A DNA stretch of 50,970 bases from Flavobacteriales bacterium (GTDB lineage: Bacteria > Bacteroidota > Bacteroidia > Flavobacteriales_E > Vicingaceae), in NCBI GenBank assembly GCA_002401955.1, contig NVUQ01000020.1, forward strand, positions 1 to 50,970, written 5' to 3'. The notes beneath the pieces were generated by a model that was not told where the DNA came from, did not search any database, and saw nothing but the letters and a program-made list of their open reading frames with translations. The translations under genes were made by a program, and so were the position numbers. Of the stretch, positions 3,058 through 20,735 are shown one piece after another. Numbering within the stretch: the first letter of the stretch is position 1; every line of letters starts with the position of its first letter.

Positions 3058-5031
3058 TTGATACCAAAGCAAACTATAGACGAAATTTTTGACGCTGCCA
3101 TTATAGAAGATGTGGTGGGAGAGTTTGTGCCATTAAAAAAGCGAGGAGCAAATTATTTAGGTAATTGCCCTTTTCATAATGAAAAAACGCCATCCTTTAC
3201 GGTTTCACCTGCCAAAGGGATTTACAAATGTTTTGGCTGTGGTAAAGCAGGAAATTCTGTCAATTTTGTAATGGAACACGAACATTATTCGTATCCAGAA
3301 GCATTGCGCTTTTTAGCAGGAAAATATAGTATAGAAATTGAAGAAGAAGAGCTAACAGACGATCAAAAAGAAGCTGCTGATGAGCGAGAGAGTTTGTATA
3401 TTGTTTCTAATTATGCAGCTAATTATTTTAAAAAACAATTGCTAGAATCTAATGAAGGAAAAGCAATCGGATTAAGTTATTTTTTAGAAAGAGGATTTAG
3501 AGAAGATATTATTGAAAAGTTCCAATTGGGGTATAACCCTGATGGGTGGACTGCGTTTACTGATGAAGCAGAAAAGGCTGGGCACAATTTAAAATACCTT
3601 GATAAATCGGGTTTAACGATAGTAAAAGGAGATAAAAAGTTTGATAGATTTAAAGGGAGAGTAATGTTTCCTATCCATAATTTATCGGGAAGAGTATTAG
3701 GGTTTGGTGGTAGAATTTTAAAATCGACCGACAAAGCAGCCAAGTATTTAAACTCTCCAGAATCTGAAATTTATCATAAGAGTAAAGTCCTTTATGGAAT
3801 TTTTACAGCCAAAAAAGCCATTACTCAAGAGGATATTTGTTATTTGGTAGAAGGATATACCGATGTAATTTCATTGTATCAATCTGGTGTAGAAAATGTT
3901 GTTTCATCTTCAGGCACCTCATTAACCGAAGGGCAAATTCGTTTGATAAGAAGGTTTACCCCCAATATTACTATTTTATATGATGGAGATGCTGCAGGAT
4001 TAAAAGCTTCGTTTAGAGGTATTGACATGATTTTGCAAGAAGGGATGAATGTGCGTGTTGTACTTTTTCCCGAAGGAGAAGATCCAGATTCTTATGCGAA
4101 ATCTCATACTACCGAAGAACTAAAAGATTATATCACAACCAAAGCACAAGATTTTATTCGTTTTAAAACTTCTGTTTTAATTAAAGACGTGGGTAACGAT
4201 CCCATCAAAAAAGCAGAGTTGATAAAAGATATTGTGGCAAGTATCGCTATTATTCCAGATCAGATTAAACGATCGGTTTATACCAAAGAATGTAGTAGTT
4301 TGTTAGATATTCCTGAGCAAGCACTAATCAATGAAACCAACAATATTTTAAGAAAAAATATTGCTAAGCAAACTAAAAAATCATCATCGCAATTTCAGCA
4401 TCAGGAACAAGAAATTCCAGATGATTTATTTTTACCAGAAGAGTTTCAAGGACAAAAAGAAGAAAAAGGGAGTGGTGATTTACAGCATTGGGAAAAAGAA
4501 ATTATACGTTTGTTGGTGAGTTTTGGAGATCAAACAATTCATGTAGAACTTACTAACGAGCAAGATGAAAAAGTAAAAGAAGAAGTTTCTGCCGCGGTAT
4601 ATATGATAGACAATATTATTGGAGATGGTATTTTTTTTGAGAACAAGACCTATCAAAAAGTATTTGATTTTTATAATGAGAAATTAAAGAATGATCAATT
4701 ACCATCGCACCAAGACTTTATTAATAATACCGATCAAGAAATTAGTCAGTTTGTTATTGGGATATTTTCTACACAACATGAGTTGAGTCCGAATTGGGAA
4801 AAACATAAAATATTTACGATAACAGAAGATCAACAGCTAACCCTCGCTGTAGAAAGAACAACGCTATCGTTTAAATTAAGTAAGGTTGAGGTTTTGATTT
4901 TAGAAAAACAAGAAGAAATTAAAATAGAAAAATCTTACGATAAACAGCTAGAATTGATGAAAGAGGAGAAAGCTTTTCAAAAAATAAAAATACAATTGGC
5001 AGCTAAACTGGGTAGAATAATATTAAGGTAG
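3058..5031 (+). CDS. dnaG: DNA primase
   Basis: It synthesises RNA primers at the replication fork, working with the replicative helicase. Domains in order: a CHC2 zinc finger (Cys37, His40, Cys58, Cys61, in CPFHNEKTPSF and CFGCG), the RNA polymerase core with a Toprim fold (YLVEGYTDVI at 262 onward, catalytic DGD at 309-311), and a poorly conserved C-terminal helicase-binding region. The 657-residue length is normal. The start is TTG: MIPKQTIDEIF matches the usual N-terminus of DnaG in this phylum and no ATG fits. The heptamer array abuts the start. The gene is convergent with the response regulator at 5122. Confidence 0.95.
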   Translation: MIPKQTIDEIFDAAIIEDVVGEFVPLKKRGANYLGNCPFHNEKTPSFTVSPAKGIYKCFGCGKAGNSVNFVMEHEHYSYPEALRFLAGKYSIEIEEEELTDDQKEAADERESLYIVSNYAANYFKKQLLESNEGKAIGLSYFLERGFREDIIEKFQLGYNPDGWTAFTDEAEKAGHNLKYLDKSGLTIVKGDKKFDRFKGRVMFPIHNLSGRVLGFGGRILKSTDKAAKYLNSPESEIYHKSKVLYGIFTAKKAITQEDICYLVEGYTDVISLYQSGVENVVSSSGTSLTEGQIRLIRRFTPNITILYDGDAAGLKASFRGIDMILQEGMNVRVVLFPEGEDPDSYAKSHTTEELKDYITTKAQDFIRFKTSVLIKDVGNDPIKKAELIKDIVASIAIIPDQIKRSVYTKECSSLLDIPEQALINETNNILRKNIAKQTKKSSSQFQHQEQEIPDDLFLPEEFQGQKEEKGSGDLQHWEKEIIRLLVSFGDQTIHVELTNEQDEKVKEEVSAAVYMIDNIIGDGIFFENKTYQKVFDFYNEKLKNDQLPSHQDFINNTDQEISQFVIGIFSTQHELSPNWEKHKIFTITEDQQLTLAVERTTLSFKLSKVEVLILEKQEEIKIEKSYDKQLELMKEEKAFQKIKIQLAAKLGRIILR

Positions 5032-12183: not shown

Positions 12184-12191
12184 TACATTTG
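12184..12191 (+). promoter_or_regulatory. Promoter -7 element of the sulfur operon
   Basis: TACATTTG matches TAnnTTTG exactly. The -33 position (about 12156-12162) is T-rich but has no perfect TTTG. Transcription would begin near 12197, ahead of the riboswitch. Confidence 0.6.
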
Positions 12192-12234
12192 TCTCAGAAT
12201 TCAATTATCCATCACAATTCGTGATTTGTAATTG

Positions 12235-12361
12235 TTTATAAAGAAGAAGCGAGAGATTAGGCTCTATGACCTTCTGGCAACCAACTTGAAGTTCGTCAGT
12301 TGACGAATTGGAAAACAGGTGCCAATTCCTATCTCCTGAATGTTTCAGGTGAGAATATAAA
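12235..12361 (+). promoter_or_regulatory. SAM-I (S-box) riboswitch
   Basis: The conserved core of the class is visible: gagagattaggctctatgac, then ggcaacc (12273-12279), then aggtgccaattcct (12317-12330). P1 can be tttata (12235-12240) with tataaa (12356-12361), P3 is the hairpin ttcgtc/gacgaa at 12291-12306 inside ccaa/ttgg, and P4 is cctgaa/ttcagg (12335-12349). It should bind S-adenosylmethionine and lower expression of the metX operon. No terminator follows directly; the next hairpin with a T-tract is 107 nt further on and overlaps the end of a small reading frame, so the expression platform is unusual. Confidence 0.85.
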
Positions 12362-12371
12362 GAATTGCAAA

Positions 12372-12503
12372 ATGAATACAATTAACAAACCGAGAACACA
12401 AGCTGAAAACCAAAATGGTTATTCAGCTAACTATCTATCTAAAAAATCTGTTTTAGTTACAGAATTTATGATGCTTAGCATGTGCTGTTGTTGCACCTGC
12501 TAA
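12372..12503 (+). CDS. Leader ORF ending in a polycysteine tail (MCCCCTC)
   Basis: A 43-codon frame that begins 10 nt after the riboswitch and ends with MMLSMCCCCTC and a TAA at 12501-12503. Three Met and five Cys fall in the last eleven codons. Those codons are physically the terminator hairpin: MMLSM covers the 5' arm, the Cys codons the loop and 3' arm. Five Cys in seven codons, upstream of a cysteine/methionine operon, points to a cysteine-sensing leader peptide, as known for polycysteine leaders in mycobacteria. The first 30 residues show no domain. The same frame is open back to 12300, but that part is riboswitch sequence, so the ATG at 12372 is preferred. Confidence 0.65.
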   Translation: MNTINKPRTQAENQNGYSANYLSKKSVLVTEFMMLSMCCCCTC

Positions 12504-12518
12504 GTATCATTCTTTTTT
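12468..12518 (+). terminator. Attenuator terminator overlapping the polycysteine codons
   Basis: A strong hairpin: atgatgcttagca (12468-12480) pairs with tgctaagtatcat (12498-12510) with one G-U pair, then after one mismatch gtgc (12482-12485) pairs with gcac (12493-12496). Six T follow at 12513-12518. It ends about 130 nt before metX. A ribosome on the last codons of the leader ORF would block it. Confidence 0.85.
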
Positions 12519-12547
12519 CTTAAAATTTTATTGAATAAAGAGTGATT

Positions 12548-12570
12548 CGAATCCTTTCGAGTAGGATTCG
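12548..12570 (+). other. Hairpin in the metX untranslated leader
   Basis: Perfect 8-bp stem cgaatcct/aggattcg with a seven-base loop, between the attenuator terminator and metX. It has no T-tract. A role in mRNA stability or a degraded repeat element are both possible. Confidence 0.5.
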
Positions 12571-12587
12571 CTATGGCTAATATTTTG

Positions 12588-12610
12588 CACACTGAGCTTA
12601 GTCGAAGTGT
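12588..12610 (+). repeat. Possible short dispersed intergenic element
   Basis: The stretch cactgagcttagtcgaagtg, within acact...agtgt ends, resembles a short sequence that recurs between genes of many flavobacterial genomes. It appears once in this window, so the repeat assignment rests on recollection rather than on local copies. Confidence 0.35.
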
Positions 12611-12648
12611 TGTCAAAATGATTAACAATCTAAAATCAAACGATTATA

Positions 12649-13707
12649 ATGAGTACGAAAATATATACATACAAAAAAACAATAGAGTTAGAATCTGGTA
12701 GAAAACTACAAGGATTGAGTTTGGCTTATACCACATTAGGGAAACTAAATGCTAAGAAAAATAATGTGATTTGGGTAACACATGCCTTAACAGCAAATGC
12801 AAATCCAGAAGAATGGTGGAATGGATTAATTGGGAAAGGAAAATTTTATAATCCAGAAGAATATTTCATTGTTTGCGCAAATGTTTTGGGATCATGTTAT
12901 GGTACTACCGGCCCTCTTTCAAACAACCCTGATACAGGAAATCCCTACTATCATAATTTTCCAGATTTAACCATTAGAGATATTGTAAATGGAATTGACT
13001 TGTTAAGAATTCATTTAGGAATTGATAAAATCAATACATTATTAGGAGGGTCTTTAGGAGGACAACAAGCTGTAGAATGGGCTATTCAGCAACCAAATTT
13101 AATTGATAATTTGTTTTTGATTGCAACGAATGCACAACATTCTCCTTGGGGAAAAGCGTTTAATGAAAGTCAACGTTTGGCCATAAAATCTGATAGAACC
13201 TGGTTTTCTTATGCTGATGATGCTGGATTAAAAGGATTAAAAGCTGCTCGATCGATTGCTTTATTAAGCTATCGTAATTACGATACTTATTTATCGACTC
13301 AGCAAGATGATAATTCTAAAACTGATGAATATAAAGCAGCAAGTTATCAGAATTATCAAGGAGAAAAATTGGTAGAACGATTCAATGCTTTTTCTTATTG
13401 GCATTTGTCTAAAGCAATGGATAGCCATAATGTTGGTAGAGGGAGGAAATCTATAAAAGAAGCCTTAAGTCTTGTTAAAGCAAAAACATTGGTTGTAGCT
13501 ATCAGTTCGGATATTCTATTTCCTGTTTGTGAATCAGAAGTTTTAGTTGAAGGAATTCCTAATTCGGCACTCTCAATTCTTCATTCACTATATGGACATG
13601 ATGGGTTTTTGATAGAAACAGAACAATTAAAAAATGAATTTGAAATTTTTTATAAAAAAAACAAAACAGTAAAAACAAAAGTTAAACATTTAAAAATTGC
13701 AATATAA
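12649..13707 (+). CDS. metX: Homoserine O-acetyltransferase
   Basis: It activates homoserine with acetyl-CoA, the first committed step to methionine; some family members use succinyl-CoA. Alpha/beta-hydrolase fold with nucleophile Ser135 in GGSLGGQQ and catalytic His in LYGHDGFLIE near residue 307. The 352 residues are full length. It is first in the sulfur operon and is controlled by the SAM-I riboswitch and the polycysteine leader. Its stop overlaps the next start by 1 bp. A homoserine sulfhydrylase sits six genes downstream to use the product. Confidence 0.92.
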   Translation: MSTKIYTYKKTIELESGRKLQGLSLAYTTLGKLNAKKNNVIWVTHALTANANPEEWWNGLIGKGKFYNPEEYFIVCANVLGSCYGTTGPLSNNPDTGNPYYHNFPDLTIRDIVNGIDLLRIHLGIDKINTLLGGSLGGQQAVEWAIQQPNLIDNLFLIATNAQHSPWGKAFNESQRLAIKSDRTWFSYADDAGLKGLKAARSIALLSYRNYDTYLSTQQDDNSKTDEYKAASYQNYQGEKLVERFNAFSYWHLSKAMDSHNVGRGRKSIKEALSLVKAKTLVVAISSDILFPVCESEVLVEGIPNSALSILHSLYGHDGFLIETEQLKNEFEIFYKKNKTVKTKVKHLKIAI

Positions 13708-14942
13708 TGGGAACAATAAATAAAATTAAATTATACGGATTTGGAGTAGTAGGACAAGGGTTTCAAACCTATTTAGCTAAAAATGAGGATGCTAAAAGAC
13801 TACACACAATTATAGTAAAAAACGATTCTAAAAAGCGAAAGAATGTCGATTCAATAATAGAATTGACAAACTCGAAAACAATAAAAGATAAAGATGTTGA
13901 CGTAATACTTGAACTAATTAGTTCTTCAGAAGAAGCTTATGGTATCGTTGCAGAAAATTTAGAAATAGGTAAAAAAGTTATTTCAGCAAATAAAAAATTA
14001 ATCGCTGAAAACTTAAAAGAACTAATCAAAATTGAAAAAGATAATGATGCTACTTTTTTATACGAGGGAGCAGTTTGTGGAAGTATTCCAATAATTAGAG
14101 TGTTGAATGATTTGTTTGTTAATGAACAGTTATCTGAAGTTAAAGGAATTTTTAATGGCTCCTCTAATTACATTTTAACAAAGCTATTTAATGAAGAAAT
14201 TTCATATGCTGAAGCACTAGAAGAAGCTCAGAACCTTGGTTATGCCGAAGCAGATCCTACTTCAGATGTAGGAGGGTTTGATGCTTTGTATAAGCTGATA
14301 ATAATTGCAGCTCACGCATTTGGAATTATCCTAAAACCTGAACAAGTATTGAATTTCGGGATAGAAGGAATTTCAAAGGAAGACATTGATTTTGCGAAAC
14401 AGTACAATTTGAAAATTAAACTACTTGCAAAAGCAGCTGTTGTTGGAGGAAAAATAAATCTATCAGTATTGCCAACATTAGTTAGCGACAAAAATGAATT
14501 ATATAATGTAGAAAACGAATACAATGGAGTTGTAGTGGAAGGTAAGGATATAGGAACTCATTTTTATAAAGGCAAGGGAGCAGGAAGTTTCCCTACTGGA
14601 GCGGTTGTTTACTCGGATTTAAAGGCGATTGATGCTAATTATCGTTATTCCTATCAAAAGCTCGGTGGCAAATCTTTGTACTTTGATAATAATGAGAACG
14701 TCACACTTGTTTTAAGCGGAGAGGATAGCGTTAGTTTAAAGAATTTAGAATCTGCATTTAGTAGCTTTTACCCATTAGACCTTTATGGAAGACGATTTAT
14801 TGCTACTATAAGTATTAAAAAGTTACAGAATATTAAATATGATCTTCGGCTAAAAAACATATCAGTTTTAGGAGTAGAAGATAATGAATTGATAGAAATA
14901 TTAACACAGACTTCAAATAAAAATGAAGCGATAGCTGTATAA
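13707..14942 (+). CDS. hom: Homoserine dehydrogenase
   Basis: It reduces aspartate semialdehyde to homoserine, the substrate of metX. The N-terminal nucleotide-binding fold starts at YGFGVVGQGF (residues 9-18), and the catalytic domain has VISANKKLIAEN, GSIPIIRVLND and LGYAEADPTSDVGGFDALYK. At 411 residues there is no fused aspartate kinase. The C-terminus (from about 320) is weakly conserved and may be a degenerate regulatory domain. The 1-bp overlap with metX indicates coupled translation; placing hom in this operon dedicates a pool of homoserine to methionine. Confidence 0.9.
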   Translation: MGTINKIKLYGFGVVGQGFQTYLAKNEDAKRLHTIIVKNDSKKRKNVDSIIELTNSKTIKDKDVDVILELISSSEEAYGIVAENLEIGKKVISANKKLIAENLKELIKIEKDNDATFLYEGAVCGSIPIIRVLNDLFVNEQLSEVKGIFNGSSNYILTKLFNEEISYAEALEEAQNLGYAEADPTSDVGGFDALYKLIIIAAHAFGIILKPEQVLNFGIEGISKEDIDFAKQYNLKIKLLAKAAVVGGKINLSVLPTLVSDKNELYNVENEYNGVVVEGKDIGTHFYKGKGAGSFPTGAVVYSDLKAIDANYRYSYQKLGGKSLYFDNNENVTLVLSGEDSVSLKNLESAFSSFYPLDLYGRRFIATISIKKLQNIKYDLRLKNISVLGVEDNELIEILTQTSNKNEAIAV

Positions 14943-14945
14943 GAC

Positions 14946-17051
14946 ATGAAAACATTTAGAACAGAAACAGAAAATATTTTAGACCCAGTTGTTGAAAAAG
15001 ACATTATTGAATTAGGTCAGAAAATACACGAATATAAAACGGGAAAATTACCCGAAGATAAATTTAAAGCATTGCGTTTAGCAAGAGGGGTTTATGGACA
15101 AAGACAGTTGGGAGTTCAAATGATTCGAATAAAATTGCCTTACGGTAAGTTATTAGCAAATCAATTAACTCGTATTGCTGATGTATCAGATAAGTATTCC
15201 AATGGAAACTTACACCTAACAACACGACAAGATGTTCAGATTCACTATGTGAGTTTGGATAAAACACCCCAATTGTGGGAAGAATTGGAGCAAGATGAAA
15301 TCACATTAAGAGAGGCGTGTGGTAATACTGTAAGAAACATTACTGCATCGGTCTATGCTGGAATTGATCCAAAAGAGCCTTTTGATGTTTCTCCATATGC
15401 AGAGGCACTATATAAATATTTGCTGAGAAATCCAGTAAATCAAGATATGGGTCGAAAAATTAAAATTGCTTTCTCATCAAGTGAAGAAGACTCCGCCTAT
15501 GCATTTTTGAATGATTTAGGATTCATTCCAAAAATTGTAAATGGGAAAAGAGGATTTAAGTTATTGATAGGAGGAGGACTTGGTGTAAAACCATTTTTAG
15601 CAAAAACAGCTAAAACATTTATTTTGGCAGAAGACATTTTTGCTTATACAATTGCTATTCTAAGAGTATTTGACCGATATGGAGAAAGGCAAAAACGAAA
15701 TAAAGCAAGATTGAAATACCTGATTGATAGCATTGGGACTGAAGAGTTGTTGCGTTTAGTGGAAGAAGAATTGTTGGTTGTAGAAAAAGAGGAGATAGAA
15801 GTTTTGGAAGTAGAAGAACCAAGTTTGCGTTCGGTTAGGGTTGCTCCTATTACAAATGTTGAGGACATCAATCATTACTTGGCTTGGTATAAATCTAATA
15901 TTTATCACCAAAAACAAGAAGATTTTTATGCAATACAATTAAAAATTTCCAATGGAAACATTAGTTCTAAGGTAGCCAGAAAATTGGCTAAGGTGGTTAA
16001 CTATTTCTCTAATGGAGAGCTAAGAGTTTCAATTAACCAAGGGTTAATAATTAAGTACGTGAGAAAAGATTCGTTGCCTTATTTATATGAGGAGCTTAAA
16101 AAGTTAAACTTAATTAATCTTGGTTTTGATAGTACCGTAGACATAACCTCTTGCCCAGGTACAGATACTTGTAATTTAGGAATTGCAAACAGTACTGGCT
16201 TGTCGAGAGAATTGGAGAAATTTATTGAAAAAAACCATGCTGAATTTGTTTTTAATAGAGATATCAAAATAAAAATAAGCGGATGTTTTAATGCTTGTGG
16301 CCAGCATTCAATTGCTAATATTGGGTTTCATGGAAGCACGATTAAGAAAGATGGCAAACTAATACCAGCAGTTCAACTGTTACTTGGTGGTGGAATTCTT
16401 GGAAATGGAGATGGAATTATTTCAGAGAAAATAATAAAACTTCCAACAAAGAGAGCAATAAATGCAGTTGATATTATTTTGAATGATTATAAAAAGAACG
16501 GGAAGAATTTATTGTTTAACCAATATTACAACGATAACGGAAACCATTACTTCTATGATCTTTTAAAAGAATTAGCTGCAGCACCAATTCAAGAAAATGA
16601 ACAACTAGATTGGGGTCAAAAGGAAAAATTTGCTATGAGTATTGGTGTTGGAGAATGTGCTGGTGTAACGATTGATTTGGCTCAAACCATTCAATATGAG
16701 ATTGATGAAAAAATTGAACTGGCAAAAGAAACCTTAGAGTTAAAGCGTTTTTCTGATTCTGTTTATCATTCATACAACATTTTTGTACACAGTGCAAAGT
16801 TATTGTTATTGAGTAATGGCGATAAATACAATAGCCAAAACTCTGTGATAAATGAAGCAAATGAATTATTAATTAAAAATGATGTTCAACTAAGAAAACC
16901 ATTTAAAGAATTGGTGTTGGGAATTAAAACTGAAGTAGCTCAAAAAGAATTTGCAGCCCAATATTTTTCAGATGCACTTCAAGTAAATAGAATAATTAAA
17001 GGACTTGTAAACAAATTAGCTGAGGTTAAGGAAAAAGAAGTTCTTGTTTAA
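14946..17051 (+). CDS. Siroheme-[4Fe-4S] sulfite/nitrite reductase with helical C-terminal extension
   Basis: It most likely reduces sulfite to sulfide for cysteine and methionine synthesis. The enzyme has two repeats of ferredoxin-like plus siroheme domains over residues 1-530. Cluster cysteines are Cys403, Cys409, Cys447 and Cys451 (CPGTDTC and CFNAC). At 701 residues it is longer than common sulfite reductases: from about residue 545 there is an added helical region (LKRFSDSVYHSYNIFVHSAK and onward) that resembles a HEPN domain. Nitrite as substrate cannot be excluded from the fold, but cobA, siroheme synthase and cysH immediately downstream favour sulfite. Confidence 0.85.
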   Translation: MKTFRTETENILDPVVEKDIIELGQKIHEYKTGKLPEDKFKALRLARGVYGQRQLGVQMIRIKLPYGKLLANQLTRIADVSDKYSNGNLHLTTRQDVQIHYVSLDKTPQLWEELEQDEITLREACGNTVRNITASVYAGIDPKEPFDVSPYAEALYKYLLRNPVNQDMGRKIKIAFSSSEEDSAYAFLNDLGFIPKIVNGKRGFKLLIGGGLGVKPFLAKTAKTFILAEDIFAYTIAILRVFDRYGERQKRNKARLKYLIDSIGTEELLRLVEEELLVVEKEEIEVLEVEEPSLRSVRVAPITNVEDINHYLAWYKSNIYHQKQEDFYAIQLKISNGNISSKVARKLAKVVNYFSNGELRVSINQGLIIKYVRKDSLPYLYEELKKLNLINLGFDSTVDITSCPGTDTCNLGIANSTGLSRELEKFIEKNHAEFVFNRDIKIKISGCFNACGQHSIANIGFHGSTIKKDGKLIPAVQLLLGGGILGNGDGIISEKIIKLPTKRAINAVDIILNDYKKNGKNLLFNQYYNDNGNHYFYDLLKELAAAPIQENEQLDWGQKEKFAMSIGVGECAGVTIDLAQTIQYEIDEKIELAKETLELKRFSDSVYHSYNIFVHSAKLLLLSNGDKYNSQNSVINEANELLIKNDVQLRKPFKELVLGIKTEVAQKEFAAQYFSDALQVNRIIKGLVNKLAEVKEKEVLV

Positions 17052-17062
17052 AAACAATAAAT

Positions 17063-17842
17063 ATGAAATATAACACATATACAACTAAACCTGCTCCTAC
17101 GGTAAAAATCGTAGGAGCAGGTCCTGGAGATGCAGATCTGCTAACGATAAAAGCTTATAAAGCGATAAAAAATGCAAAAGCAATTTTGTACGATGCCCTA
17201 ATTGGTAAAGAAATATTGGATTTTGCTAATCCAGAAGCAACCTTGGTTTATGTAGGAAAAAGAGCCAATAATCACAGTTATACACAAGAGGAGATTAATC
17301 AATTGATGGTAGATTATGCCTATAATTATGGTAATGTTGTTCGATTAAAAGGAGGCGATCCTTATATTTTTGGTAGAGGCCATGAAGAATATAACTATGT
17401 TACTTCTTTTGGAATTGATGTAGAAGTAATACCTGGAATTTCAAGCGCTATAGCTGTTCCAGAATTATCCAACATTCCATTAACAAAAAGAGGTATTAGT
17501 GAAAGCTTTTGGGTGTTAACAGCCACCAACAGAAAAGGAGAGTTATCAAAAGATCTTCTTCAGGCAGTAAAATCTGATGCCACAATAGTTGTTCTGATGG
17601 GAGTTGGTAAGTTGAACAAGATAGTTGAATTATATCAACAAAATGGAAAACAAGAATTACCAGTTGCTATTATTCAAAATGGTTCGTTAAAAACGAGTAA
17701 AACAGTTGTTGGGTCTGTTAACACTATTGCAGAAATAGCAATTGCAAATAAAATAGGAACACCAGGAATAATTGTGTTGGGAGAGGTGGTGAATACCAAC
17801 CCAGCATTTATTTTAGAAAAAATTAGATATGAAAACAAATAA
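17063..17842 (+). CDS. cobA: Uroporphyrinogen-III C-methyltransferase
   Basis: It methylates uroporphyrinogen III twice with SAM to give precorrin-2, the first step toward siroheme. The 259-residue protein shows VGAGPGDADLLTIKA near residue 16, VRLKGGDPYIFGRGHEE near 93, and the GISSAIAVPELSNIPLT segment near 125, all standard for the family. With the next gene it supplies the siroheme cofactor of the sulfite reductase upstream. Its 3' end overlaps the siroheme synthase start by 14 bp. Confidence 0.92.
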   Translation: MKYNTYTTKPAPTVKIVGAGPGDADLLTIKAYKAIKNAKAILYDALIGKEILDFANPEATLVYVGKRANNHSYTQEEINQLMVDYAYNYGNVVRLKGGDPYIFGRGHEEYNYVTSFGIDVEVIPGISSAIAVPELSNIPLTKRGISESFWVLTATNRKGELSKDLLQAVKSDATIVVLMGVGKLNKIVELYQQNGKQELPVAIIQNGSLKTSKTVVGSVNTIAEIAIANKIGTPGIIVLGEVVNTNPAFILEKIRYENK

Positions 17843-18464
17843 TTTATACCCAGTCTTTATTAAGTTGGATGAGGTTCAAGTATTAATTGTTGGTGCTGGA
17901 AATGTAGGGTTAGAAAAAGTGCAATTTATTTTAAAGCAAAGCCCTGATGCAAAAATAAAAATAGTTTCAGAAACTTTTCATGCGCAAATAATCTTATTGG
18001 CAATAAAAAACTCCAACATTAAAATAACAGAAAGAAGATTCTTAAAAGAAGATTTAGATGGAGTTAAAATATTAATTGCTGCCACCAATAATAATCAGGT
18101 AAATGGAGAGATTTATGATTTGGCTCAAGAAAGGAATATTTTGACCAATGTGGTTGATAGCCCAGATCAGTGTGATTTTTACACTGCCGCAGTTTTAAGC
18201 AAAGGGAATGTTAAGATAGCAGTATCTAGTAACGGAGCTTCGCCAACATTGGCTAAAAGGTTAAGGGATATTTTAGAGGAGGTTATCCCCGAAGAAGTAA
18301 ATTACTCTTCCCTAGTTTTGGGAAGAATTAGATCTCGTTTAAAAGGAGATTTAAAAACAAAAATTAACACATTAAATCAGATTACTGATGTTTTAGTGAG
18401 GAGTAAAAACTCAATAGAACAACTAAGAAAACAATCTAATTTATATGATGTAAACTTAAATTGA
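17829..18464 (+). CDS. Precorrin-2 dehydrogenase/sirohydrochlorin ferrochelatase (CysG N-terminal type)
   Basis: It oxidises precorrin-2 to sirohydrochlorin and inserts iron, completing siroheme. The Rossmann motif VLIVGAGNVGLEK is at about residues 19-31, and VSSNGASPTLAKRLRD at about 138-153 is characteristic. The 211-residue protein equals the N-terminal half of CysG, with the methyltransferase half encoded separately just upstream (cobA), 14 bp overlapping. cysH begins 1 bp after its stop. Confidence 0.9.
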   Translation: MKTNNLYPVFIKLDEVQVLIVGAGNVGLEKVQFILKQSPDAKIKIVSETFHAQIILLAIKNSNIKITERRFLKEDLDGVKILIAATNNNQVNGEIYDLAQERNILTNVVDSPDQCDFYTAAVLSKGNVKIAVSSNGASPTLAKRLRDILEEVIPEEVNYSSLVLGRIRSRLKGDLKTKINTLNQITDVLVRSKNSIEQLRKQSNLYDVNLN

Positions 18465-18465
18465 A

Positions 18466-19152
18466 ATGGAACAAACTTTAAAAAGAACGTTTTCGAAAGA
18501 AGAAATCGAAAGGTTAAATAAAAAATACAATAAGCTAAGTGTAACTGAGCGAATAAAAGAATTGTATATAGATTTTGGTGCAGATGAAGTGATGTTAACC
18601 TCGTCTTTTGCGGCAACCTCTGCTTTTTTATTGAGGGTGTTTTCAAAAGAAAACCAAGCTCAGAAAATATATTTTATCAATACAGGGTATCATTTTGATG
18701 AAACATTAGCTTATAAAAAGCAGTTAACAGATTTGTATGGTTTAAATGTTGAGGACATAGGTGCGGAAAAATGGGAACATGACTTTACCACTTCAGATGA
18801 AACTTGGAAAAAGAACCCGAATTTTTGTTGTTCGGTAAACAAAGTGAAACCTTTAACATTAATTAAAGAGAGATTTTCTGTTTGGGTTTCAGGTTTAATG
18901 GAATGGCAGAGTGACCATAGAGCAAGTTTAGATATTTTTGAAGAGCGTGGAGGGATATTAAAATTTTATCCTTTACTAGATGTTTCCAAAGAAGAAAGAG
19001 AACAATACATTAAGGAAAATGAGTTACCTTTTCATCCTTTAGTCGCAAAAGGGTATTTTTCTATTGGATGTAAACATTGTACAGTTCCCGGAAAGGGTAG
19101 GGAAGGCAGGTGGAATAACAATCCTAAAACAGAATGCGGATTACACTTATAA
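18466..19152 (+). CDS. cysH: Assimilatory APS/PAPS reductase
   Basis: It reduces activated sulfate to sulfite. The 228-residue protein has the adenylyl-binding LTSSFAATSAFLL region near residue 45, and four cysteines of a [4Fe-4S] site: Cys121-Cys122 and Cys202-Cys205 (CC and CKHC). These are the mark of the APS-reducing type rather than the cluster-free E. coli PAPS reductase. The C-terminal ECGLHL carries the catalytic Cys224. It supplies sulfite to the reductase encoded three genes upstream. ATP sulfurylase is not in the window. Confidence 0.92.
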   Translation: MEQTLKRTFSKEEIERLNKKYNKLSVTERIKELYIDFGADEVMLTSSFAATSAFLLRVFSKENQAQKIYFINTGYHFDETLAYKKQLTDLYGLNVEDIGAEKWEHDFTTSDETWKKNPNFCCSVNKVKPLTLIKERFSVWVSGLMEWQSDHRASLDIFEERGGILKFYPLLDVSKEEREQYIKENELPFHPLVAKGYFSIGCKHCTVPGKGREGRWNNNPKTECGLHL

Positions 19153-19574: not shown

Positions 19575-20735
19575 ATGGAAAACTTTGAAACATTAGCGAT
19601 TAGAACTCAAACAGAACGTTCACAATTTAATGAGCATTCAACACCATTACACCTAACATCTAGTTATTTATTTGAGGATGCAGAACAGATGCGTGCCATG
19701 TTTTCTGATGAAATAGAAGGAAATATTTACAGTCGATTCTCTAATCCAAATACCACCGAATTAATTGATAAAATGTGCTTGCTAGAAGGAGCCGAAGCAG
19801 GTTGGGCAACAGCTACTGGAATGGCTGCTGTATTTACTACGTTTGCGGCTTTATTAAGTAGCGGTGATCATATTTTATCTTGCCGATCGGTTTTTGGATC
19901 AACACATTCGGTTTTAACTAAGCTCTTACCAAAATGGGGTATAACCCATACTTATGTTGATTTAAATGAAACTGAGAAGTGGGAAGTGGCTATTCAACCA
20001 AACACTAGAATTATTTACATAGAGACACCAACCAATCCTGCAGTAGATATTATTGATTTAGAGTGGTTAGGACGGTTAGCTAAAAAACACAATATATTAT
20101 TGGTTGTGGATAATTGTTTTGCTACCCCATACATTCAACAACCTATAAAATATGGTGCTGATTTGGTAATTCATTCTGCAACAAAATATTTAGATGGACA
20201 AGGAAGAGTGTTAGGTGGAATTATTGTTGGGAAACAAGGATTAATTGATGAGGTGAAGCTGTTTGCAAGACATTCTGGACCAGCCCTTTCTCCATTTAAT
20301 GCTTGGATCATATCAAAAAGTTTAGAAACCTTGGCCTTAAGAATGGATAGGCACGCAGAAAGTGCATTGAAACTAGCACAGTGGTTAGAAAAACATAATG
20401 AAGTAGAATTGGTAAAATATCCTTTTTTATCATCGCATCCCCAATATGAAATTGCTAAAAAGCAAATGAAATCTGGTGGAGGTATAGTAACCTTTGTTGT
20501 TAAAGGTGGAGTTGAAAAAGGACGGGATTTTTTGGATAAGCTAAAACTCATTTCTATGACCGCTAATCTAGGTGATTCCAGAACTATTGCTACACATCCA
20601 GCCTCTACAACACACTCTAAATTAACAGAAGAAGATCGTTTAGAGACAGGAATATTGCCAGGATTAATTCGTATTTCTGTTGGTTTAGAGCATATAGACG
20701 ATATTATTATAGATATTGAGCAGGCAATGAGTTAA
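19575..20735 (+). CDS. metZ: O-acyl-homoserine sulfhydrylase (Cys/Met metabolism PLP enzyme)
   Basis: It joins sulfide and O-acetyl- or O-succinyl-homoserine to form homocysteine. The 386-residue enzyme belongs to the cystathionine gamma-synthase family: PLP lysine in HSATKYLDGQG (near residue 208), substrate arginine in the C-terminal LIRISVGLEH, and YSRFSNPNT near residue 52. Closest in pattern to MetZ, usually called O-succinylhomoserine sulfhydrylase, though metX at the head of this operon suggests an acetyl donor. It is the last gene of the sulfur operon, 1 bp after the OsmC gene. Confidence 0.87.
   Translation: MENFETLAIRTQTERSQFNEHSTPLHLTSSYLFEDAEQMRAMFSDEIEGNIYSRFSNPNTTELIDKMCLLEGAEAGWATATGMAAVFTTFAALLSSGDHILSCRSVFGSTHSVLTKLLPKWGITHTYVDLNETEKWEVAIQPNTRIIYIETPTNPAVDIIDLEWLGRLAKKHNILLVVDNCFATPYIQQPIKYGADLVIHSATKYLDGQGRVLGGIIVGKQGLIDEVKLFARHSGPALSPFNAWIISKSLETLALRMDRHAESALKLAQWLEKHNEVELVKYPFLSSHPQYEIAKKQMKSGGGIVTFVVKGGVEKGRDFLDKLKLISMTANLGDSRTIATHPASTTHSKLTEEDRLETGILPGLIRISVGLEHIDDIIIDIEQAMS

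Follow-up and report, generated by a model that had tools for sequence, protein, structure and literature searches.

A SAM-I riboswitch followed by a polycysteine leader reading frame in Bacteroidota: a probable two-input attenuator of methionine and sulfur genes

The metX-sulfite reductase operon in the window analysed here (the whole stretch of 50,970 nucleotides from a Flavobacteriales bacterium) is preceded by a leader in which a SAM-I riboswitch aptamer is followed within a few nucleotides by a short ORF ending in methionine and cysteine codons. The pairing of a SAM-I aptamer with a cysteine leader recurs across Bacteroidota, so the leader RNA probably reads two sulfur signals serially. 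The reading that we favour, with good though not full confidence, is that of a two-input attenuator in which SAM gates the leader ORF and the supply of Cys- and Met-tRNA sets readthrough.

A SAM-I aptamer and a cysteine-rich leader ORF precede the operon

The features of the leader and of the operon behind it are as follows.

12184–12191, + strand: promoter-like TACATTTG (read by eye)
12226–12233, + strand: P1 extension, 5′ strand TTGTAATT, pairing with 12363–12370 (MFE fold, register-locked pairing test)
12233–12363, + strand: predicted SAM-I riboswitch aptamer, RF00162 (Rfam covariance model, 64 bits against a cut-off of 44.4)
12363–12370, + strand: P1 extension, 3′ strand, in the leader ribosome-binding region (MFE fold, register-locked pairing test)
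12372–12503, + strand: leader ORF, 43 codons, MNTINKPRTQAENQNGYSANYLSKKSVLVTEFMMLSMCCCCTC (sequence reading; counterparts in other loci)
12468–12500, + strand: control codons M M L S M C C C C T C (translation; Cys/Met enrichment across leaders)
12468–12519, + strand: hairpin 1:2 (stem 12468–12510) and U-tract, terminator-like T1 (fold, hairpin-plus-tail scan)
12506–12515, + strand: strand 2, just 3′ of the stop codon, pairing with strand 1 or strand 3
12537–12546, + strand: strand 3, pairing with strand 2 (antiterminator 2:3) or joining 3:4
12541–12586, + strand: hairpin 3:4 (12541–12578) and AATATTTT tail, terminator-like T2 (fold, scan)
12649–13707, + strand: metX, homoserine O-acetyltransferase (Pfam alpha/beta hydrolase; function name by resemblance)
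13707–14942, + strand: homoserine dehydrogenase
14946–17051, + strand: nitrite/sulfite reductase family
17063–18464, + strand: two siroheme genes, tetrapyrrole methylase (17063–17842) and siroheme synthase N-part (17829–18464)
18466–19152, + strand: PAPS/APS reductase
19575–20735, + strand: Cys/Met metabolism PLP enzyme (O-acylhomoserine sulfhydrylase type by context)

Within the window RF00162 alone, among Rfam families, passes its gathering score, and the aptamer, whose sequence and fold pass the Rfam cut-off, is a predicted SAM sensor. A first-pass annotation of this DNA had named a SAM-I riboswitch here and proposed a covariance-model search, with which the score above agrees. The leader ATG (12372) lies 9 nt past the end of the aptamer model, with 8 nt between, and the stop codon TAA occupies 12501–12503; coordinates and translation thus bear out the earlier description of a 43-codon ORF just 3′ of the aptamer, ending MMLSMCCCCTC. 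The operon had been assigned to methionine and reduced sulfur, and its genes (a metX-type hydrolase, homoserine dehydrogenase, sulfite and PAPS reductases, siroheme genes and a PLP enzyme) are of that kind; it also includes OsmC, listed between the PAPS reductase and the PLP enzyme. In the leader, then, a short reading frame carries repeated codons for the amino acids that the operon serves; its translation and the stalling of ribosomes on it upon starvation are predicted.

Three smaller elements were seen in the same region. The promoter-like TACATTTG resembles TAnnTTTG, which we take to be the −7 element of Bacteroidota promoters. A hairpin, ATCAC-AATTC-GTGAT, stands at 12211–12225, immediately 5′ of the P1 extension, and by eye similar sequence occurs in several members of the family of leaders to which this one belongs (hereafter the window's family). 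A small hairpin, TCTGTTTTAGTTACAGA, lies within the leader ORF at 12447–12463, 5′ of strand 1; hairpins of its type are found, again by eye, at about the same place in some relatives with the stem sequence changed, and it is perhaps an RNA polymerase pause hairpin.

Cysteine leaders accompany metX/metY-linked but not metH-linked SAM-I riboswitches

A search of 60 genomes, the window's own included, with RF00162 gave 69 matches in 53 genomes. A metY protein alignment supplied 80 named loci, which are the best 80 of 585 relatives and hence a set biased to close metY relatives; their titles name one Candidatus Kapaibacterium and otherwise Bacteroidota groups, and the SAM-I model made 66 matches in 65 of them. 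Altogether the 135 SAM-I matches comprise 42 before metH, 78 before metX or metY and 15 not classable by gene. Leader ORFs were required to begin with an ATG 4–24 nt past the aptamer and to run for 15–80 codons, the ORF with most Cys being taken where there were several (2 of 71 loci), and a cysteine leader was called when at least three Cys stood among the last 14 codons. Further leaders came from model searches; a class-wide leader-model search, in which few candidates were scored per genome, is excluded from the absence counts.

Cysteine leaders were found at 64 of the 78 metX/metY-linked SAM-I riboswitches. The first-pass annotation had suggested seeking Met/Cys-ending short ORFs upstream of metX and cys genes in Bacteroidota, and before metX and metY they do recur. 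Five of the remaining loci have two Cys, two have fewer and seven have no ORF by the rule, although one of these seven (L143) does carry a cysteine leader with its start at +26. Among the 42 metH-linked SAM-I riboswitches, by contrast, there was no cysteine leader, and none reaches even two Cys. Two loci outside the 78 and 42, L127 and L134, for which the gene class is missing, both have a cysteine leader. Given an ATG, Cys-run ORFs were observed at 64 of 71 loci as against 141 of 14,200 shuffles (1%). The hosts include Cyclobacteriaceae, Pedobacter, Mucilaginibacter, Pontibacter, Hymenobacter, Saprospiraceae and Thermonema, and leaders in those clades end, for example, in CICMCCCC, CCMCCCCCCC or MMCCCCM. 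In three Algoriphagus loci (L086, L087, L089) and in L080, L088 and L122 the start codon is at the usual distance and the Cys run is lost or reduced.

The composition of the leaders points to the residues themselves. Cysteine makes up 52.5% of the last ten residues versus 1.8% elsewhere, and methionine 13.6% versus 1.8%. Because both TGT (217) and TGC (137) are used, it is the Cys residue that is kept and not one codon; and because blastp at E 0.01 sorts the 64 leaders, minus their last 12 residues, into 39 groups, the biggest with 8 members, conservation is confined to the Cys/Met run and does not extend to the remainder of the leader. Such a pattern argues for selection on the codons read rather than on a peptide fold or a single RNA hairpin. 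The first-pass annotation had named, as evidence against itself, a hairpin conserved in relatives where the ORF is not; we found the opposite, with the Cys run kept more widely than the hairpin. Across 19 close leader pairs, 83 comparisons of Cys codons show no change, 9 a synonymous and 20 another change, and there is no sign in these pairs of a synonymous preference at Cys codons.

Spacing is conserved at both ends of the ORF. Counted from the aptamer end, the leader ATG is at +7 to +11 in 64 of 69 leaders, in an A/U-rich context, and the last Cys falls 0–5 residues before the stop in 64 of 64, a position that would suit different coverage of strand 2 by a stalled ribosome and by one at the stop codon.

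When a direct terminator was defined as a hairpin of dG under −8 with a tail of at least 3.5 within 100 nt 3′ of the aptamer, one was present at 35 of 42 metH copies. Riboswitches with a leader had one in 4 of 69 cases, and metY loci lacking a leader in 4 of 9. The earlier statement that SAM-I riboswitches normally carry their own terminator is thus true of the metH copies, which act as an internal control, and the expression platform beside P1 is without a direct terminator in 65 of the 69 leader cases; the leader ORF therefore mostly replaces the usual terminator. The window's own genome holds a second SAM-I riboswitch (L068), located before metH and followed by an ordinary terminator.

Two terminator-like hairpins and a predicted competing antiterminator

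Folded in two segments, hairpin 1:2 has predicted free energies between −25.8 and −28.8 kcal/mol and z-scores between −6.4 and −7.1; 0 of 200 shuffles were as stable, and TTCTTTTTTC stands directly 3′ of its stem. Two Met codons start its 5′ arm, the Cys codons occupy the loop and the top of the stem, and the 3′ arm contains the final Cys codon together with the stop codon. No other terminator-like hairpin of the window comes near it in the hairpin-plus-tail scan (−24.1 kcal/mol, tail 4.38); a simple terminator scan of the window did not list it, probably because of a stem mismatch. The Met and Cys codons had been described at first as forming a strong terminator at 12468–12518. That hairpin is real, yet it is one of two terminator-like hairpins, for strands 3 and 4 (12537–12586) had been overlooked, and with them the arrangement becomes that of a trp-type attenuator.

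The tail of hairpin 3:4 is weak in the window (3.12 in the hairpin-plus-tail scan); in the related loci G003, G010 and G013 it consists of six or seven T. The sequence ahead of the operon therefore offers two candidate intrinsic terminators with a U-tract, the second with a weak tail, and termination at 1:2 or 3:4 is predicted. Just 3′ of hairpin 3:4, at 12590–12609, is a CACTGAGCTTAGTCGAAGTG repeat with three exact pattern matches in the genome; as a guess, it may have displaced the U-tract present there in some relatives.

Without a ribosome the window's RNA is predicted to fold into 1:2 and 3:4; with the RNA free from about the stop codon onward it forms 2:3, and with strand 2 covered it forms 3:4. 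The probability of the outer 3:4 stem is 0.00 in the stalled state, 0.74 with the ribosome at the stop and 0.46 for ribosome-free RNA. After shuffling of the strand-2 region the stalled value averages 0.43, and 0 of 100 shuffles were as low as the window's 0.00.

Covariation and predicted switching in the window's family

Fourteen of 20 family leaders, where 1 is expected, have a 2:3 duplex that outdoes 95% of shuffles, and the duplex sequences vary among members (AUCAUUCUU/AAGAGUGAU, AUCGUUCA/UGAACGAU, UACAUCUU and partner, CAUUACC/GGUAAUG). In most members the same strand 2 also pairs with ORF codons in 1:2. As the per-locus duplex listing was fitted to the best duplex, it leans towards pairing; a partner-swap test is without that bias, and in it a leader's own partner outdid the exchanged one 279 times out of 354 for 2:3 and 256 times out of 354 for 1:2. 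These counts are not independent, because the members are related. A MAFFT alignment of the attenuators was dropped since it misplaced strand 3 in divergent members, and pairings were counted per locus instead.

A switch was called where the 3:4 probability was at most 0.14 in the stalled state and at least 0.5 at the stop. Mutually exclusive antiterminator and terminator structures sharing a strand were found, by this measure, in the window and in 7 of the 15 family loci with a candidate; 3 of 18 family leaders have no candidate. Six of the seven switching loci were matched by at most 2 of 100 shuffles, and G009 by 20 of 100. Among the non-switchers, G006, G007 and G028 keep 3:4 in both states and five loci are weak; G004 and G012 have eroded Cys runs. 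Many family members have two U-tailed hairpins at nearly fixed sites around and after the stop codon. When U-tailed hairpins spanning the Cys run and stop were counted at a dG of at most −8 and a tail of at least 3.0, 14 of 18 family leaders had one, versus 11 of 51 others. The idea that leader codons form the terminator therefore applies mainly to the window's family.

The aptamer appears to be tied to the leader's start by an extension of P1. In the predicted fold of the window the last paired base of the extension is 2 nt 5′ of the leader ATG. Across the 18 leaders of the family, 7.22 of 9 pairs form versus 4.90 in shuffles, with at least 8 pairs in 9 of 18; the excess is weak in the 51 leaders outside the family (5.22 versus 4.67) and absent from the 42 metH controls (4.40 versus 4.43). 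SAM binding closes P1, so the leader's ribosome-binding region would be expected to be hidden. The fixed spacing, the scarcity of intervening terminators and, in the window's family, the P1 extension suggest that the aptamer probably governs entry into the leader ORF.

Leaders outside the window's family

In the other leaders the second half of the device is less apparent. The 3:4 switch was seen in 2 of 51 non-family leaders, being absent or not detectable in 49, and the hairpin-plus-tail scan gave no terminator-like 3:4 hairpin in 32 of the 51. A 2:3 duplex stronger than 95% of shuffles occurs in 12 of 67 leaders, and the partner-swap test favours the native strands in 2596 of 4412 comparisons (59%), with no 2:3 signal for Pedobacter (37/102), Mucilaginibacter (21/42) or Hymenobacter (13/42). 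Most Pedobacter and Mucilaginibacter leaders have a hairpin directly after the stop and an adjacent second one with no clear U-tract behind; here termination may need Rho, or the mechanism may differ.

A model for serial sensing of SAM and cysteine

From these features we infer that SAM binds, that leader translation is thereby blocked, that ribosomes stall and that transcription ends at either of the hairpins, steps which would work together as follows. With SAM bound, P1 would close, in the family with an extension of about 8 bp, hiding the ribosome-binding region and leaving the leader untranslated; 1:2 with its U-tract and 3:4 would then both form, and transcription would end early. When SAM is low the leader would be translated and the ribosome would meet the C-terminal Met and Cys codons. 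A shortage of charged tRNA-Cys or tRNA-Met would make the ribosome stall with strand 2 free, 2:3 would form, 3:4 would be blocked and the metX-sulfite reductase operon would be transcribed; if the tRNAs are plentiful, the ribosome at the stop codon would cover strand 2 and 3:4 would terminate transcription. With two inputs in series the operon would thus reach its highest activity under a joint shortage of SAM and cysteine. In the window's family 1:2 has a U-tract of its own, and SAM and Cys may therefore use separate terminators. We put forward more tentatively, and give somewhat less than an even chance to, a serial logic throughout the phylum in which SAM-I uses translation of the Cys/Met leader as its platform, with 1:2 serving SAM and 3:4 serving cysteine as separate terminators in the family; each signal would then have its own stop, and the operon would open only with both low.

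In the single-terminator explanation of the first-pass annotation, only hairpin 1:2 would end transcription, any ribosome inside it, stalled or moving, being enough to block it and strands 3 and 4 lying idle; its clear lead in strength over the window's other terminator-like hairpins (−24.1 kcal/mol, tail 4.38) and its U-tailed counterparts in other leaders (14 of 18 in the family, 11 of 51 outside it) speak for this. We nevertheless consider it unlikely, as it leaves unexplained both the covarying 2:3 pairing and the second hairpin at the same site in relatives, and most non-family leaders keep the Cys run without the hairpin. A real coupling of aptamer and leader that acts through Rho, RNA decay or translation of the first gene is the stronger competitor, though still the less favoured account: 32 of 51 non-family leaders are without a second terminator-like hairpin, and mycobacterial cys leaders, for which Rho has been suggested, are likewise described as having no conserved terminators in the part of that report available to us (PMC1262725). 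It may be the rule outside the window's family; within it, two U-tailed hairpins stand at near-fixed sites in many members.

That the Cys-rich nascent peptide itself senses metal or redox state, as in some copper-responsive leader ORFs, is improbable. A stretch of as many as seven Cys would be able to bind soft metals, and a copper-responsive upstream ORF is described in the accessible part of one report (PMC9426467), but the operon's products are methionine and sulfide, Met codons are enriched alongside Cys, and the run adjoins the stop codon and, in the family, alternative RNA strands. That the Cys run arose by chance, or reflects low-complexity TTG repeats next to an otherwise ordinary SAM-I riboswitch, can be given almost no weight: the window's own genome has 73 matches to four TGY in a row (frames unsorted), yet the division of cysteine leaders between metX/metY (64/78) and metH (0/42) copies and the 1% seen in shuffles tell against it. 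The two-input attenuator thus remains the reading that we prefer.

Relation to known systems

The individual parts are of known kinds. The aptamer has the sequence and fold of SAM-I/S-box riboswitches (RF00162) and stands, like them, before methionine genes; it differs from the usual SAM-I riboswitch in that the leader ORF start adjoins it, mostly in place of a direct terminator. In the trp, his and leu attenuators, control codons end a short ORF and the pairings 1:2, 2:3 and 3:4 are exclusive. The same placing of the control codons and the same exclusive strands are found here, but entry to the leader lies behind a riboswitch and 1:2 is itself terminator-like. By the title of a 2020 report by Canestrari, mycobacterial polycysteine leader ORFs are said to be leaderless. 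A T box binds tRNA directly; here, unlike in a T box tandem, sensing would fall to a translating ribosome and would concern Cys. We know of no earlier case in which a metabolite riboswitch gates the leader ORF of an amino-acid attenuator. Within the open-access literature (subscription papers and supplements fall outside this scope) we did not find a SAM riboswitch coupled to a cysteine leader, and the coupling appears to be new.

Several published leaders come close, as far as the accessible parts of the respective reports go. Short ORFs with Cys runs near the stop occur upstream of cys genes in Actinobacteria, where no riboswitch is mentioned and terminators are not conserved (PMC1262725). 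The uORFC-8-2 motif upstream of cysS in Rhodobacterales places Cys codons in a short-ORF hairpin whose stem is a U-tailed terminator; it has two Cys codons and belongs to another gene and phylum, with no riboswitch mentioned (PMC8632094). The mgtA leader with mgtL joins a Mg2+-sensing riboswitch and a Pro-codon leader ORF, so that there as here two signals converge on one leader RNA, although ligand and residue are different and the ORF bases are part of the sensor rather than 3′ of an aptamer (PMC6460261). SAM-I with a Met T box is a listed tandem riboswitch with 'NOT A AND B' logic, and like the present leader it sets a SAM sensor before a tRNA-charging sensor; the accessible main text contains none of 'leader peptide', 'uORF', 'attenuat' or 'cysteine' (PMC9481103). 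In Sinorhizobium meliloti metA a translation-controlling riboswitch is followed by a terminator before the gene, but it is of class SAM-II and no amino-acid control run is described in that portion of the source (PMC9373788). Leader-peptide attenuation is reported upstream of amino-acid operons in Flavobacterium psychrophilum, the operons not being named in the available text (PMC9723704).

If the two-input reading is true, two classical RNA mechanisms are joined in series to make a natural two-input gate at the point where sulfide goes to methionine rather than cysteine, and this would explain why the metX/metY SAM-I riboswitches of Bacteroidota mostly have no terminator of the kind present in the metH copies. 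Sulfur regulation in this phylum seems little studied, and culturable hosts with such leaders (Pedobacter, Mucilaginibacter, Pontibacter and Hymenobacter) make the proposal directly testable.

Cysteine leaders without a SAM riboswitch

Three metY loci have Cys-rich short ORFs without a SAM riboswitch. One in L118 (Flavobacteriaceae UBA7684, from 3620) ends in YGCCC and one in L132 (from 3593) in SMCMCCMYMCM, so a Cys leader may exist without the aptamer. In the Candidatus Kapaibacterium locus (L144) a Met/Cys-rich leader, MMQMCMMMCCCMRGTC..., begins at 3703 upstream of metY, and neither the SAM-I model nor Rfam gave a SAM riboswitch there; it is followed by a strong hairpin from 3868 and then by TTTTTGTTTTT, and is perhaps a stand-alone Met/Cys attenuator.
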